NCBI RefSeq assembly: GCF_007752535.1
Contig: NZ_CP036426.1
Location: 1-64,000 of the forward strand
Source: Tautonia plasticadhaerens
GTDB taxonomy: Bacteria > Planctomycetota > Planctomycetia > Isosphaerales > Isosphaeraceae
Direction: 5' to 3'
DNA: 64,000 nt
The translations under genes were made by a program, and so were the position numbers. The notes under the pieces were generated by a model. It saw nothing but the letters and a program-made list of their open reading frames with translations. It searched no databases and was not told where the DNA came from. Below, one piece after another: positions 1 through 55,468 of this stretch (position 1 is the first letter of the stretch; the number at the start of each line of letters is the position of its first letter).

Positions 1-1455
<1,455 letters not shown>

Positions 1456-48344: not shown

Positions 48345-48649
48345 GGGTCTCGACCGATCGGCGTCGGCCGGGGAGGCGGTCGGCCCGGGGCGCGCCGGGG
48401 CCTCGGTGCCGACGCGGGGCCGGCCGATCCGCGGGGCCCCTCCGCCGCCCCCCGATCAGAAACCCGGGAGGTCGGGTGACTGCCGGGGCGGGGTTTCTCG
48501 ATAGTAAGGAGAGGGGCCGATCGCTCCCCGCCCGTCCCCCGTCCGTCCCTCCGACGGGAGGACGATCAGGAGGCAGGGTCGGGCGTCCCTCGTCTTTGGC
48601 AATCCGAACCATCGTGGAGACCCGACCCCCGGCAAGGAGGCTCCGCCTT

Positions 48650-49050
48650 CAACCGAGCCGGCCGTCCTGGCGGCGTCGCGACGAGACGAATCGAAGCCAA
48701 TCCGGTGCGACGAATTGACGGAGCGAAGCCATTTGCGACGCCGGTCGAACCATCGCAAGTCGTTTCATCCGAGGAAAATCAATCCAAAATGCCCCGGGCG
48801 CACCGGCGGCGTCGATCGGCGCACCGGCCCATGCCCGACCGGGTTTCTCGGCGAGCTCGCTCGGCCCGCTCGGGTCGGTCGGGGCCGAGGCGAAACGAAC
48901 CCATCCCCGTCGCGACGAGACGAAGCCGACCCCGGGGTTCATGCGACGGTGGGAAGCCAGTGAGGTCGGCGCAAGCCGAATCCGGAACAGGAAAAACGGC
49001 CGAAGGTCCGGGCGCATCGGAGGCGCACCGGCAGCGCACCAGCCCGAAAC
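48650..49050 (+). repeat. degenerate repeat tract A (CGAAGCC and GCGCACCGG units)
   Basis: Irregularly spaced units such as CGAAGCCAATC, CGAACCCATCC and CGAAGCCGACC are mixed with CGCACCGGC-type units (near 48798, 48818, 49023 and 49033). A related tract in the opposite orientation lies at 54222-54680. Both contain a segment of the form GCGCAA..CC.....GGAAAAAC followed by GCGCACCG units. Confidence 0.5.
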
Positions 49051-49094
49051 CCGTCACGGTCGGGCCGGGGTGATCCGCTGAGGGAGGCGTCGGG

Positions 49095-50795
49095 TCAGAG
49101 GTAGCCGAGTTCGGCCAGGCGTTGCTTGACCGCCTCGTCGTCCTCGGGGTCGGGGGCATCGTCCGACCCGCCCCCGGGAGGGCCGTCGGCGTCGCCCGGG
49201 TCGGGGGGGGCGATCGGCTCGTCGAGGTCGGGGAGGGAGGAGGGGTCGAGGACTTCCAGCAGGGGCCGGCCGTCGAGGTCGTCGGGGGCCGGGACGCCGA
49301 GCAACCGGAGGACGGTCGGGGCGATGTCCAGCAGGGTGGCGTCCGGGCCGAGGGAGGAGCCGGGGCGGATCGTGGGGCCGGAGGCGAGGAAGACCCCCTC
49401 CATCCGGTGGTCCCCCGTGGGGCCGAAGGCGGGGGAGATGACCTTGTGGGTGGTGAAGTCGTGCAGGCCGATCGTCCGGTATCGCCAGTCCCCCAGCACC
49501 ACGGTCAGGTCGGGCGCCAGGTGGGCGTTGGGGCCCTGGTAGAGTTCCTCCGCCTCATAGACCCGGTCGACCAGCGGCCCCCCCGTCTCGGGATGGGTCA
49601 GCCCGGCCAGCTCGGCCTTGAGGTCGTCGAGCAGCGGGCGGACGTCCTCGGGCCGGACGCAGCCATTGGGCTGGCGGCCCTGTTTATTGACGAAGATCTG
49701 GCCGAAATTGCCCTGGGCGTAGGCCCTCGTCTTCGACCAGTCGATGTGGCGCCGGGAGAGGAAGAGCGACTCGGCCATCTGGTCGAGCCGGTTGTCCTGG
49801 CTGCCGCCGAACCGGCTGACCCGGTGCTTCGCCTGGCCGAGCCGGGCCATGATGCGGTAGATCCACTCCAGCGTCACCCCCCGTCGGAAGAACCAGTGCT
49901 TCTGGCGGACGTAGGGGGTGTCGATGAGCGTGATGTATCCGCGGTCGAGCAGCCATACGTTGAAGTTGACGAAGTGCTCGACCGGCCCGAAGCCGTGGTC
50001 GCTCATCAGCACGAGGGTGGCGTCGGCGGGCAGGGCGGCCTCGATCTCGCCGATCCCCTCGTCGAGCCGCTTCCAGAAGGCGACGAAGCCGTCCCGGACC
50101 TTCGACAGGTCCCGGCCCCGGGCGACCCGGTGCGACGGCTCCCAGGCATGCCAGAGTTCGTGCTGGATGCGGTCGGTCGCCATCAGGTCGTAGACGAACA
50201 GGTCCCAGGGGCGGGCGTCCATCAGGAACCGCACGGCCCGGAGGTGGTGGTCGAGGAACGAGGTCAGGCCGGCCAGCGCCTCGGGCTCCCGGCCGCCGTC
50301 GTGGACGGAGACGTCCCAGGGGCGGTAGGGCTCGCCGAGGTGCCGTTCCAGCTCGGCGAACAGCTCCGGGTCGGAGGTGAAGTCCCGGGCGTTGGGGGGG
50401 GCGAGGAAGTCGCCGAGGAAATTCAGGCCGGGGGTCTTCCGGGGCGGGTAGCTCATCGGAACGGCGCCGGCGGTCGTCTTCCGGCCGTAGCGGGCGGCGA
50501 CCTCCCAGAGCAGCGCCGAGTCGATCGACCGGGACGTGTTCACCCGGCCGCCGAGCGGGTCGTGCCCGAACTCCAGGAACTCGAAGATGCCGTGCTTGCC
50601 CGGGTTCTTGCCGGTCATCACGCCGGTCCAGGCCACCGGGCTCAGCGGCGGGAAGATCGACCGCAGGGTGCCCGACGCCCCCCGAGCCCGCACCCGGGAG
50701 AGGTTCGGCAGCTCCCCGGCCTCGGCCAGCGGCCCGAGGATGTCCCAGGTCGCCCCGTCGAGCCCGAGCACGAACACCTTGGTCGCCGTCGCCAT
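49095..50795 (-). CDS. alkaline-phosphatase-superfamily phosphodiesterase-type protein
   Basis: This 566-residue protein starts at the ATG at 50795 (MATATKVFVLGLDGATWDIL); a GTG 14 codons upstream is possible. The AP-superfamily metal and nucleophile motifs are LGLDGATWD (Asp ligand), SPVAWTGVMTGKNPGKHGIFEF (Thr nucleophile region), TDRIQHELWH, LMSDHGFGP and GDHRMEGVF. This fits type I phosphodiesterase/nucleotide pyrophosphatase proteins. No signal peptide is seen. The C-terminus is acidic and Pro/Gly-rich. The substrate is unknown. Tract A lies just beyond its 3' end. Confidence 0.88.
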   Translation of the reverse strand: MATATKVFVLGLDGATWDILGPLAEAGELPNLSRVRARGASGTLRSIFPPLSPVAWTGVMTGKNPGKHGIFEFLEFGHDPLGGRVNTSRSIDSALLWEVAARYGRKTTAGAVPMSYPPRKTPGLNFLGDFLAPPNARDFTSDPELFAELERHLGEPYRPWDVSVHDGGREPEALAGLTSFLDHHLRAVRFLMDARPWDLFVYDLMATDRIQHELWHAWEPSHRVARGRDLSKVRDGFVAFWKRLDEGIGEIEAALPADATLVLMSDHGFGPVEHFVNFNVWLLDRGYITLIDTPYVRQKHWFFRRGVTLEWIYRIMARLGQAKHRVSRFGGSQDNRLDQMAESLFLSRRHIDWSKTRAYAQGNFGQIFVNKQGRQPNGCVRPEDVRPLLDDLKAELAGLTHPETGGPLVDRVYEAEELYQGPNAHLAPDLTVVLGDWRYRTIGLHDFTTHKVISPAFGPTGDHRMEGVFLASGPTIRPGSSLGPDATLLDIAPTVLRLLGVPAPDDLDGRPLLEVLDPSSLPDLDEPIAPPDPGDADGPPGGGSDDAPDPEDDEAVKQRLAELGYL

Positions 50796-51080
50796 CGCTT
50801 CGCGTGCCCCCCGGCCGATCCGCCCCGCCTCGATCACGGCCCCTATTCTAGCGGCGCCCGTCCCCGGGATCGACCCGGCCCCCCTTCGGCATGTCCCGGT
50901 CCTGTCGGTCCCGCGGGCAGGCCCGCAAAAAGTTCGAGCAGTCCCCCGACCGCCTTGGGCCGTGTCACGAAAATTCTCCCAACCCTAACGGCATTCTCCA
51001 TAAGAACCTGCGGCGAATGGATTCGTCTCCCATCCGGGGAAATTCGGGCCTGGCATCAGGGCTGCGTTGGCGACGATCGC

Positions 51081-51206
51081 TCGCAATCGAATACGTCTTC
51101 GGGCACGAGGGCCTCGGCCCCTGTTCGAGCACGGTCGAGATCACGAGCAAGCGTCGTTCTCCCTGGCTATGCCCGGCTCCCTCGTGGGGAGCCGGGCTTT
51201 TTTTTT
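51081..51206 (+). ncRNA. possible small RNA ending at an intrinsic terminator
   Basis: A plus-strand intrinsic terminator at 51171-51206 has no gene in front of it. A weak promoter (TTGGCG near 51067, AATACG near 51090, 17-base spacer) would start a transcript near 51100, giving about 100 bases. I see no match to SRP RNA, 6S RNA, tmRNA or RNase P signatures. Both ends are inferred. Confidence 0.3.
51171..51206 (+). terminator. intrinsic terminator with nine Ts
   Basis: The 11-base stem (51171-51181 with 51187-51197) is perfect, with a 5-base loop, and is followed at once by nine Ts (51198-51206). It is the only textbook Rho-independent terminator found in the window. Confidence 0.85.
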
Positions 51207-51328
51207 GCCCCTTCGTCGGGTCGACGACGGGGAGCAACCCAACCCGCAACAACCTGGGAGGTTTCCAGCTCGGTCAATTCCGCCATTCCTCCCATACCCC
51301 CCTGTTCGCCGATTTTGTCGTTCGCTCC

Positions 51329-51357
51329 TTGCGTGGGTCGAGGACCTGGCCTATACA
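51329..51357 (+). promoter_or_regulatory. candidate promoter of the YTV protein gene
   Basis: TTGCGT at 51329-51334 and TATACA at 51352-51357 have a 17-base spacer. It lies about 110 bases upstream of the start codon. Confidence 0.55.
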
Positions 51358-51467
51358 GTAGATTCGCATCGATTGCGGCGCCTTGAGCGGCTGGGGCGTG
51401 CGTGGCGACGAGGGCGTTTGCTCCGGCCGGGAACGAAGAATAAGCCCCCACCAGCGGAGCGACCACG

Positions 51468-53036
51468 ATGAGACGGTTCAGGAGTGGCGGGATCGGCCTG
51501 GCGGCGGTCGTCGCGGTGGCCCTGGCGGTGCCGGGGACGGCGTCGGCCTGCCACCGATGCGGGCACGGCGCGATCGGTGGGGCCGCCGGCCCCTGCCCGG
51601 CCCCCGTCGGCCCGGCGATGCCGGTCGACTGCGGCCCGGCGATGATCCCCCAGACGGTGACCTCGTATCAGACCGTCACCGAGACGGTCTACGACGAGGT
51701 CCCCGAGACGATCATGCAGACCCGGTCCCGGACCGAGTATCGGGCCGAGCAGGTGCCGGTCACCCGGTACACGACCGAGCGGGTGCCGGTGCAGGTGACC
51801 CGGACCGAGTACCGGACCGAGTACGTCTCGCAGCAGGTGCCGGTCACCCGACACGTCACGGAGCAGGTGCCGGTCACCCAGACCCAGACCCGATACCGGA
51901 CCGAGTACCGGGCCGAGCAGGTGCCGGTCACCCGGACGGTCTACGAGACGGTGGACGTCCCCCGCAGCTACGTCGTCAGCGTGCCGAAGTATGAGACCGT
52001 GCAGCAGCCGGTGACCCGGACGGTCTGCGAGCCGGTGACGTCCACGCAGGCGGTCCACCAGCGGCACACCGTGCTGGACCAGGTGGTCGAGACGGTCATG
52101 CAGTCGCAGCCCTATACGGTGATGGTCCCGCAGGTCCGGACCAGCTACCAGGCCCGGACCGTGGCCGAGCAGGTGCCGGTCACCCGATACCGGGAGGTGT
52201 GCGTGGACATGGGGGGCTACGAGACCCGCACGTTCTCCGTCGGCGGCTGCGGCCACCGGCTGGGGCACGGGGGGAAGGGCCTGGCCTGCCTCGGCCACGG
52301 CGGCTGCGGCCATTCCTGCGCCCCGGCCTCCTGCGTGACCCAGCAGGTCTACGTCCCCCGGCCGGTCCGGCAGCGGATCCCGGAGACCTCGTACGTGACC
52401 CGCCAGCGCTGCGAGACGTTCCCGGTGCAGACGACCGTCCAGGTGCCGGAGGTCCGCCACCAGCAGGTGCCGGTGCAGGTCACCCGCCAGGTCCCCCGCG
52501 AGGAGATCCGGACGGTCCAGGTCCCGGTGACGCGGATGGTCCCCCGGCAGGTCACCGAGATGGTCCCGACCACGAAGGTGACCATGACCCAGGAGACCCG
52601 GACCGAGACCGTGCCGACGCTCCAGGCCCGGCAGGTCACCGAGACGACCACCCGGCAGGTGCCGTACACGGTCACCGAGCAGGTGCCGGTGACCGTCATG
52701 ACCACCCGGACCCGGGCCGTCACCGAGACCGTGACGCAGCAGGTCCCCGTCCGGAAGGCCGTCCAGGTGCCGGTGACCGCCTACACCACCCGGACGGTCC
52801 CGGTGCAGGAGGTCATCACCCGGCAGGTGCCGTACACGGTCACCGAGCAGGTGCCGGTGACCGTCATGCGGCAGGTCCCCCGCCAGGTGACCCGGCAGAT
52901 CCCGGTGACGACCACCGTCATGGTGCCCGCCCCGTCGGCCCAGGCGATGCCGGCGGCCTCGCCGCAGGGCCAGGCCTCGCCGCAGGGCCAGGCCTCGCCG
53001 ACCTCCCAGGAGGCCTCCCCCCAGGCCCAGTCCTGA
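51468..53036 (+). CDS. YTV-repeat secreted cell-wall-type protein
   Basis: This 522-residue exported protein has a signal peptide (GIGLAAVVAVALAVPGTASA, ending before Cys 28). The mature protein is almost entirely short Thr/Val/Arg/Gln repeats such as EQVPVT, QQVPVT, YRTEY and RQVPYTVTEQVPVTV. This is the YTV pattern known only from planctomycete cell-wall-associated proteins. A His/Gly/Cys-rich island (about 262-290, HRLGHGGKGLACLGHGGCGH) interrupts it, and cysteines are otherwise few. The tail is SPQGQA repeated. At DNA level a 48-base segment occurs twice identically (52653-52700 and 52821-52868). It probably forms fibrous or cross-linked surface material. Confidence 0.9.
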   Translation: MRRFRSGGIGLAAVVAVALAVPGTASACHRCGHGAIGGAAGPCPAPVGPAMPVDCGPAMIPQTVTSYQTVTETVYDEVPETIMQTRSRTEYRAEQVPVTRYTTERVPVQVTRTEYRTEYVSQQVPVTRHVTEQVPVTQTQTRYRTEYRAEQVPVTRTVYETVDVPRSYVVSVPKYETVQQPVTRTVCEPVTSTQAVHQRHTVLDQVVETVMQSQPYTVMVPQVRTSYQARTVAEQVPVTRYREVCVDMGGYETRTFSVGGCGHRLGHGGKGLACLGHGGCGHSCAPASCVTQQVYVPRPVRQRIPETSYVTRQRCETFPVQTTVQVPEVRHQQVPVQVTRQVPREEIRTVQVPVTRMVPRQVTEMVPTTKVTMTQETRTETVPTLQARQVTETTTRQVPYTVTEQVPVTVMTTRTRAVTETVTQQVPVRKAVQVPVTAYTTRTVPVQEVITRQVPYTVTEQVPVTVMRQVPRQVTRQIPVTTTVMVPAPSAQAMPAASPQGQASPQGQASPTSQEASPQAQS

Positions 53037-53080
53037 TCCCGGGTCGAGTCCGGGTCGACCCCCTTCGAGCGTCCCCCGAC

Positions 53081-53115
53081 GAGGCGGCGACGACGGCCCG
53101 GGCCGTCGCCGCCTC
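53081..53115. terminator. hairpin after the YTV gene
   Basis: Arms 53081-53099 and 53100-53115 are complementary over 16 bases, with a 3-base bulge in the left arm and almost no loop. It lies 44 bases after the stop. Confidence 0.45.
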
Positions 53116-53618
53116 GACGCGTCCCGGGAGGAGGCCGGGACGGGCCGGCCCCCCATCGGGCAGGGGTGGCGACCCCGGAGATCGGCGTGAGGGAACGGCT
53201 CCCGCCCACGGGTATGCTCCGGAATTGCCCGGATCGATAACCCTTCGGGTGGCCGGGGGCTCGTCCGCGAGGCCTCGTCCGCGAGGCCCCGGCCAACCGA
53301 AGGCACGCCTTCCGGGCAATGCCGGATGAAATGGCCCCGGCCCTTGCAGCGACGGCCCGTCGGCCTACCATTCGGTGGGACACCTCGGCCTCGGCCTCGG
53401 CCGGTCGCGTCGGTCCCGGGACCCGCTCGATGCCTCGGGCGGAGTCCCTTCGGCCTCCCCCCCACCATGCGGGGCCGAGGGCCGATCGAGGAGGACCGCC
53501 CCGGGAGCCTTCCGCCGCGGCCTTCCCCCGCGATCGGCCGTCCCTGCCCCGCCTCGCCCCCATCAGCCGCGATCGAATCCCCGAGATCGATGCGGCCCAC
53601 GCCCGGAGCCTCGCCCTG

Positions 53619-54185
53619 ATGATCGATTGGAACCTCGCGTTCGAGCGGTCCTTGCCCTACGACGAATTCCTCTCCCGGCACGGCAAGGAGGCCGAGCGGG
53701 CCAAGTGGGCGGCCATCCACGGCCGGGTGGCGCTGACCGGCCCGCAGCGCGAGCTGATCGGCGGGTTCGTCCGCCGGATGCCGGTGCTCTGCCTGGCCGG
53801 GACCTGGTGCGGCGACTGCGTCTCCCAGTGCCCGATCCTCGACCACATCGCCCGGGCCAACCCCTCGGCGATCGAGCTCCGCTACCTCGACCGGGACGCC
53901 CTGCCCGAGGTCGCCGACGCCCTGAAGGTCAACGGCGGCCGCCGGGTGCCCGCGGTCGTCTTCCTCAGCGAGGACTTCCTGGAGGTCTCCCGGTTCGGCG
54001 ACCGGACCCTCTCGCGCTACCGCAAGCTCGCTGCCGACCAGCTCGGGCCGAGCTGCCCGACCGGCCTGGTCCCCCCCGCCGTCGAGGAGCTGGCCGCCGT
54101 CACCGCCGAGTGGGTCGACCAGTTCGAGCGCGCCCACCTCATCCTCCGCCTCTCCGGCCGCCTCCGGGAGAAGCACGGCGACTGA
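53619..54185 (+). CDS. thioredoxin-family protein
   Basis: This is a 188-residue protein from the ATG at 53619 (MIDWNLAFERSLPYDEFLSRHG), supported by GGAG ten bases upstream. The frame is open back to 53319, but the extra 100 residues are Arg/Pro-rich and not fold-like. A start in between cannot be excluded. The thioredoxin-like core has VLCLAGTWCGDCVSQCPIL with a CGDC active site and a third Cys four residues on. FLDRD-type sequence (ELRYLDRDALPEV) and a cis-Pro loop RRVPAVVFL follow. It may reduce or sense a thiol partner; no signal peptide is seen. Partner unknown. Confidence 0.8.
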   Translation: MIDWNLAFERSLPYDEFLSRHGKEAERAKWAAIHGRVALTGPQRELIGGFVRRMPVLCLAGTWCGDCVSQCPILDHIARANPSAIELRYLDRDALPEVADALKVNGGRRVPAVVFLSEDFLEVSRFGDRTLSRYRKLAADQLGPSCPTGLVPPAVEELAAVTAEWVDQFERAHLILRLSGRLREKHGD

Positions 54186-54221
54186 CCCCCTCACCGCCCC
54201 GATCGCCGGCGGCGGTATGAG

Positions 54222-54680
54222 CCGGCCGGTGCGCCGTTGGTGCGCCCCCGGTGCGCCTCCCCCGAGATCGCCGTTTCTCCTTGCCAGGTCGACGATTGCG
54301 GCGTGACCGATTGGGTCTGCCCCGTCGCGTCCCCTCCCAGGAATGGGTTCGTTCGGTCACGTCCCGGGCGGTCGACTCGCCTGCCCCGCCCCCGGCCTCG
54401 CGTCGCGCACCGAGGCGCCGCGGTGCGCCTCCGGTGCGCCTCCCCGTCTCGGCCCGAGACGCCGGCCCGGTGCGCGAGCGGTGCGCCCGAGGTGCGCCGG
54501 CCGCGACTGGGAGTTTTTCCTTATTCGGAAAGGGTTTGCGTCGATCCGATTGGCTTCGTTCGGTCGAACTCGTCCCGGGCGATTGACTTCGTCTCGTCGG
54601 CGACGGCGTGGCCAATCGGCTTCGATTCGCCGGGGCCGGATCGCCGGATCGGCTTCGATTCGCCGAGCGGCCCGCGACCG
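54222..54680 (-). repeat. degenerate repeat tract B (inverse of tract A)
   Basis: At least eight GGTGCGCC-type units cluster at 54228-54260 and 54415-54500. They are followed by GATTGGCTTCG, GATCGGCTTCG and GATTCGCCG units to about 54665. Read on the minus strand it resembles tract A at 48650-49050. Confidence 0.5.
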
Positions 54681-54856: not shown

Positions 54857-55016
54857 CACGCCGAAGGGTGAGTGATCCAGGCAACCCCGTATCACCTGCT
54901 CGGCTTGCCAAGGAGCAGGGCCCGACATCCCGGGCCTCCCGGCCGGCCTCCCCCCGGCGTCGGCCGAGGGGAGACGGACGGAGGACGGCCCGGGGGCGTC
55001 GATCCCCTGTCCCTTA

Positions 55017-55468
55017 CTATCGAGGAAACGAGGATCGGCAGTCACACGAAATGGCCGGGCGGACGCTCCGGTTGATCGTCCGATCAGTATGTGCGGGGAT
55101 GGCCAGGTCGTCACCACCCATGCCCGATGAGACAGGGTCGATGCCGACTGCCGCCTCGATGAGGCCGTCGCACAAGGCCATCCAGGCGTCTTGCGAGGCA
55201 CTGGAGACGTCGACCCCCGTCCCGACCGGGAAGGCCATGATGTCGAACCGGTCGTTGGTCGCCGCGTGCTCAAGCTTATGGGTCCCCTCCTCGTCGAGGA
55301 GCCCGGATGCGTCGGGTCGCGCATCATACCCGCATCGAACCTGGGGCTCGAACGCACCACGGTACGATCCAGACCCCCGCTGAATTTACGACATCTCGGA
55401 AAGTCCCGGGAGTGGTCACACGATTCTTTCAGAGCCTCTTCCATTTCTCCAATCGTGATCTTCTTCAC
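55017..55468 (-). pseudogene. remnant of an unidentified gene
   Basis: A GTG at 55468 is preceded by a perfect AAGGAGG ribosome site and starts MKKITIGEMEEALKESCDHS. After about 35 residues the reading frame turns to shadow sequence. A convincing frame resumes in another register with ASGLLDEEGTHKLEHAATND and then FDIMAFPVGTGVDVSSASQD, AWMALCDGLIEAAVGIDPVS, ending at 55017. One frame change joins them. I do not recognise the family. Confidence 0.35.

Follow-up and report, generated by a model that had tools for sequence, protein, structure and literature searches.

Inverted repeat tracts in Tautonia plasticadhaerens are probably dispersed transcription units for long untranslated RNAs with repeated putative binding sites

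The first 64,000 nucleotides (nt) of contig NZ_CP036426.1 of Tautonia plasticadhaerens, hereafter the window, contain two repeat-rich tracts, A (48650-49050) and B (54222-54680), which lie in opposite orientation and bracket a 5-kb segment that includes phosphodiesterase, YTV and thioredoxin-like genes. What are these tracts for? A sequence-only reading had taken them for an undescribed dispersed repeat family that could mediate inversion of the segment between them. Our analysis bears out the family but not the inversion. Because each unit carries its own promoter-like element and often a ribosomal RNA (rRNA)-type antitermination signal, long untranslated RNAs are the most likely explanation rather than inversion repeats. 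The tracts thus probably belong to a dispersed set of transcription units whose RNAs would be long, antiterminated and untranslated, with repeated putative binding sites.

The published genome of T. plasticadhaerens ElP, a member of the Isosphaeraceae, consists of a chromosome and five plasmids with 71.1% GC (PMC7716859); the assembly holds 9,395,224 bp in 6 contigs. Both tracts were found where the sequence-only reading had placed them, in opposite orientation and with CGAAGCC(A/G) and GCGCACC units common to the two. In the window CGAAGCCRA occurs 8 times against 1.7 expected, a count reached in 0 of 100 shuffles. With one mismatch allowed, GGCGCACCGG is not enriched (28 copies in the whole window versus 28.1 expected), and its exact copies are concentrated within tracts A and B; the GCGCACCGG unit likewise shows no window-wide excess but clusters inside the tracts. 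An 85-nt core model (R1), built from 26 modules without those of tract A, matched, at E < 1e-3, at least about 75 loci with some 140 modules between them, located on the chromosome and three plasmids (C2, C5 and C6). These counts are a lower bound, and further arrays (L188, L189, L198) came to light incidentally. Genome-wide, the two tract A modules, both absent from the training set, gave E values of 3.9e-8 (48718-48811) and 2.8e-10 (48953-49029), and tract B gave 5.1e-16 (54480-54563, its own core being part of the model) and 9.0e-7 (54239-54316). By blastn, tract B matched dozens of loci in the genome with E values down to 1.9e-13, and tract A matched at 3e-4. The core-model and blastn values lie far beyond the similarity that GC-rich DNA yields.

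In all, the family comprises about 80 intergenic arrays on chromosome and plasmids, of which 76 arrays with 148 modules were analysed. None of the 76 core arrays overlaps a predicted gene, gene context being taken here and below from a simple codon-usage gene-calling script. The family also appears to be undescribed. Rfam covariance models at gathering score gave no match in 20 loci and, in the window region, two weak matches only, below gathering and outside the arrays; the open-access papers searched for repeats or non-coding RNA in Isosphaeraceae or Tautonia contain no such family. Judged against that literature, the element is of a kind not known before. Plasmid records, from which those of the T. 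plasticadhaerens genome itself were possibly excluded, gave no match. Within 1 Mb of the dnaA end the density of arrays is about 1.6-fold higher (29 of 79 versus 18 expected, p 0.007, first and last Mb of the contig pooled), and this denser zone adjoins the gene at window positions 1-1455 (+), which encodes a DnaA-like protein.

Each module follows one order: one to four boxes of the form RCGAA(G/C)CCAWT, then GATCGRCGCAA in many copies, an A-rich stretch (e.g. GGAAAATC) and two to seven GCGCACCG units. Across the 76 arrays, neighbouring boxes lie 32-33 nt apart and neighbouring GCGCACC units 10-11 nt; box-to-first-GCGCACC distances fall into modes of 59-61, 70-72, 81-83 and 91-94 nt, a lattice with steps of about 11 nt. 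The repeats are direct and asymmetric: modules keep a single orientation within each array, while arrays point either way across the genome.

Alignment of thirteen arrays revealed a gapless upstream element, GTGACTGccg-N-CGATNNTA. When a matrix made from only these 13 sites was scanned over 750 nt upstream on the sense strand, the element was found upstream of 73 of the 76 arrays; the reverse strand and the downstream side each yielded 1 of 76. From GTGACT and GATNNT at a distance of 18 nt we infer a likeness to a sigma-70-type promoter. A genome search placed the same element ahead of ordinary protein genes as well, typically 100-200 nt before the start, with automatic start calls unreliable for some (L184, L186, L190, L191, L193, L194, L196, L197 and L199, several of which are close paralogues and not all independent). 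Among the products of genes with the element are related proteins of a multicopy family, with the motifs NRRNALRSTGPRTAEGKLRSRRNGL and RRKAQDL, and LamG-like proteins (L185, L195).

Between the promoter-like element and the modules many arrays carry TCTTTGGCAATCC. The three rRNA operons of T. plasticadhaerens have GCATCTTTGGCAATCCGG 450-475 nt before 16S in all three leaders. Exact CTTTGGCAATC sites number 10 in 9.4 Mb, against 0 for the reversed control: three lie in the rRNA leaders, six in arrays (unit A included) and one in an unrelated WD40-like coding sequence. A boxA-like site (at least 10 of 13 matches) is present 79-152 nt after the promoter start in 30 of 73 arrays, compared with 0 of 73 in each of two controls, and wherever the elements are found their order is promoter, boxA, modules. 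The site in unit A matches the organism's own rRNA leaders at 14 of 14 nt and lies on the sense strand, in an untranslated position downstream of the promoter. Leaders seem to be of two types: those with GTGACTGCCG often contain boxA, and those with GTGACTGAAATCGGCCC usually lack it. In rRNA antitermination, boxA is where NusB/S10 binds (PMC4807359, PMC5725501), the consensus GYTCTTTAANA being gammaproteobacterial, and NusB/S10 would be expected to bind the putative boxA of the arrays. The arrays resemble rRNA operon leaders in that unit A and the three rRNA leaders share TCTTTGGCAATCCG without a difference; unlike those leaders, they have no structural RNA downstream, and their promoter differs, rrn promoters appearing to read TTGAC-N-TANNAT.

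These elements bear on a different view of the modules, as sites on double-stranded DNA to which a nucleoid or chromosome-organising protein would bind, with the promoter incidental or serving to open the sites. Units recur every 10-11 nt and boxes every 32-33 nt, both close to a whole number of helical turns, and a non-coding, intergenic set that thickens toward the dnaA end would suit such a role. It would leave unexplained, however, the promoter-like element at 73 of 76 arrays, the rRNA-identical boxA-like sites and the constant order and strand, and the periods in other genera (21-65 nt) are mostly not helical multiples. We therefore consider DNA sites unlikely, although they are the strongest competitor to an RNA product.

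The two window units illustrate the layout. The repeats lie within the extents first drawn for the tracts, but the units are larger, with promoter-like and boxA-like elements outside them (48472-48606 and 54901-55049). Unit A, on the forward strand, begins with a promoter-like element at 48472-48510 (GTGACT at 48476-48481, 18 nt, GATAGT; model R2, E 1.9e-6, copy in the model), followed by the boxA-like element TCTTTGGCAATCCG at 48593-48606. Its module 1 (48690-48811) has boxes at 48692 and 48724, 32 nt apart, an A-rich stretch and the first GCGCACC, with GCGCACCGG units following at 48797-48827; module 2 (48919-49046) has a box at 48921, GGCGCAAG, GGAAAAAC and GCGCA(T/C)C units. Unit B, on the reverse strand, has its promoter-like element at 55011-55049 (GTGACT, 18 nt, GATAGT; R2, E 3.6e-6, copy in the model) and the boxA-like element TCCTTGGCAAGCCG at 54901-54914. 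Module 1 (54480-54658) contains four boxes with an exact 33-nt period, one of them CGAAGTCAATC, then GGATCGACGCAA, GGAAAAAC and GCGCACC units; further GCGCACC units occupy 54409-54480, and module 2 with three GCGCACC units spans 54222-54364, with about 37 nt between its end and the stop codon of the thioredoxin-like gene, which is convergent. Both units stop just short of convergent genes. Elsewhere in the segment, window 51011-51212 (+), between the phosphodiesterase and YTV genes, has at its 3′ end a strong terminator-like hairpin with a T run (an 'orphan terminator'), at which weak sub-threshold Rfam matches (suhB, anti-hemB) finish; it could be a separate small RNA gene.

The surroundings of the arrays also speak to whether they are long 5′ leaders regulating the gene downstream. 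A same-direction gene follows 41 of the 75 arrays with a known downstream gene, its start codon lying close behind arrays L050 and L055, and the same promoter type precedes genes. The other 34 of 75 arrays nevertheless run into a convergent gene, as both window tracts do. This absence of a preferred flanking-gene orientation points to independent units rather than to leaders or antisense regulators of one neighbour, and the leader explanation seems to us improbable, slightly more so than that of DNA sites.

Could the arrays instead encode protein? In translation the units give recurring peptides, and stop-free frames across arrays are common (65 of 76), yet sequence so rich in GC is expected to have them. 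The GC phase amplitude of the arrays is 0.05, that of real window genes 0.53, and array spacings are distributed over all three reading phases. A protein-coding repeat gene is ruled out by this lack of GC periodicity and by spacings in every phase, in agreement with the earlier judgement that the units are non-coding. Conserved secondary structure with covariation was not found either: the RNAalifold consensus had short stems only and the median fold z was -0.31. Three specific ideas about the motifs were rejected. Near-match pairing of CGGAGCG with CGCACCG contains an invariant A-A mismatch and is broken by the common A variant. For a Rho-binding comb of CC dimers about 11 nt apart, base composition shows only a weak C excess (skew -0.06 in cores). 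Box pairing with transfer RNA T-arms, considered by reasoning only, fails because CGAACCC fits GGGTTCG and the equally common CGAAGCC does not.

A promoter and boxA in the leader, and after them repeats set apart by variable stretches, also recall arrays of clustered regularly interspaced short palindromic repeats (CRISPR), where the RNA is cut into guides. boxA is known upstream of natural CRISPR arrays, and its addition raised the transcription of a synthetic array (PMC7862264). The likeness extends to a long untranslated tandem-repeat RNA with boxA in its leader (PMC7862264), the array RNA here being a prediction from sequence, and some genera space their boxes at 35-45 nt, the intervening sequence being unrelated (L076, L085). 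That the array RNA is a precursor from which cleavage at the boxes releases small guide-like RNAs is nonetheless very improbable. The Tautonia arrays lack long identical repeats with spacers and instead have two kinds of motif at fixed spacing; the boxes are short and degenerate, and the intervals, rather than being unique and of similar length, are variable, or identical or nearly so (L072 and L203). About 80 loci per genome is unlike CRISPR, and no cas gene was noticed among the genes around the window tracts, array neighbours not having been searched against cas families.

Conservation among relatives, a survey suggested by the sequence-only reading, separates the core from the box. Of 45 family genomes, the 85-nt core model matched only the four of the genus Tautonia; the 41 others and 293 further genomes of the phylum gave no match under the stricter filters applied to large genome samples, which weak core copies may escape. 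This lack of matches beyond the genus suggests that the GCGCACC part is genus-specific. The box alone is more widespread and occurs family-wide. RCGAASCCAWT outnumbers its reversed control by 204 to 3 in genome G028, 192 to 3 in G032, 114 to 14 in G026 and 147 to 2 in G044, and within the family its copies line up in tandem on one strand, at periods that are genus-specific and range from 21 to 65 nt or more. Tandem box pairs occur in 15 of 45 family genomes and in 3 of 353 other genomes of the class, with one match each, so tandem boxes are nearly restricted to Isosphaeraceae. In other genera, too, several box arrays have a boxA-like site ahead of them (at least 10 of 13 matches, against 9 or fewer in local controls; e.g. 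L072, L079, L083, L207). One such genus has, in and around G011:C1 3705940-3706070 (L203), 23 box copies with a 24-nt period and a boxA-like site 30 nt before the first.

Unit A itself can be followed into Tautonia sociabilis GM2012 (NZ_RYZH01000040.1, L151). There the phosphodiesterase gene shows 80% identity; the region downstream has a promoter-like element and two modules at 61-nt spacing, convergent with the gene just as they are in the window. The copies are 53% identical over the aligned stretch, in which the motifs stand out and the remainder has diverged. Conservation of position, motif and spacing points to selection after insertion. It therefore argues against a selfish, non-autonomous element spread by RNA or DNA copying and useless to its host, a notion that the dispersed, multicopy distribution (plasmids C2, C5 and C6 included) and the copies' own promoter-like elements would favour. 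The copies are moreover old (about 70% alike) and intergenic, and we hold this notion to be quite improbable, scarcely better than that of guide RNAs.

The inversion proposal is not supported. Tracts A and B are mutually inverted, and beyond that orientation nothing supports it. They are two of about 80 copies and have no special mutual relation, being about 70% alike with a best inverted match of 23 nt at 91%. Each unit has its own promoter-like element, both array orientations occur across the genome, and the orientation of tract A relative to the phosphodiesterase gene is kept in T. sociabilis. Inversion of the 5-kb segment by this pair is accordingly extremely unlikely.

The family, its spacing, the promoter-like and boxA-like elements, the non-coding nature and the position of unit A are directly supported, and together they provide the basis for a model. 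We predict that each of the tracts forms the main part of its own transcription unit, in which RNA polymerase would start at the GTGACTG/CGATNNTA promoter and, in many units, be turned by the boxA-like signal into an rRNA-type antitermination complex. The resulting RNA would be long (about 0.5 kb for unit A, about 0.8 kb for unit B) and untranslated, and would contain one to three or more modules of mostly unstructured sequence boxes at fixed spacing. As for the boxes, our best guess is that a sequence-specific RNA-binding protein binds them and that the many copies, at about 80 loci jointly, act as a titrating or scaffold RNA.

Several observations weigh against this model. A recognisable boxA-like site is missing from more than half of the arrays and is not kept in the T. 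sociabilis copy of unit A; no partner protein for the boxes was found; given the lack of conserved structure, RNA sites are not separable from DNA sites by sequence conservation alone; and the gene context depends on the simple calling script.

Known systems offer partial parallels. Repetitive extragenic palindromic sequences, bacterial interspersed mosaic elements and other bacterial intergenic repeats likewise occur as many short, dispersed intergenic copies. Their short imperfect palindromic unit was not found in the modules, and the Tautonia units differ further in their own promoter-like element and leader, strict module spacing and multi-module arrays. Protein-titrating small RNAs of the CsrB/RsmZ type are untranslated and carry repeated protein-binding sites, which in CsrB are GGA in hairpin loops, with one or few genes per genome. 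Repeated sites are present in the Tautonia arrays too, and titration is what we propose by analogy; the sites here, in contrast, are unstructured RCGAASCCAWT and GCGCACC, in about 80 loci.

Extending the model to the family, we can suggest only tentatively that Isosphaeraceae have a chromosome-wide system in which dozens of long RNAs, antiterminated and built of tandem boxes, together titrate or scaffold an RNA-binding protein dedicated to them, with RCGAASCCAWT ancestral to the family and a module layout particular to each genus. If transcribed, the arrays would be among the most numerous transcription units of a bacterium other than those for rRNA and transfer RNA, and a rare case of rRNA-type antitermination signals across a large set of untranslated RNAs, offering a test of boxA use outside rRNA and CRISPR. 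They would also give an organism poor in genetic tools a defined promoter class and account for the spurious TKPI/NEPI peptides that recur when planctomycete intergenic DNA is translated.

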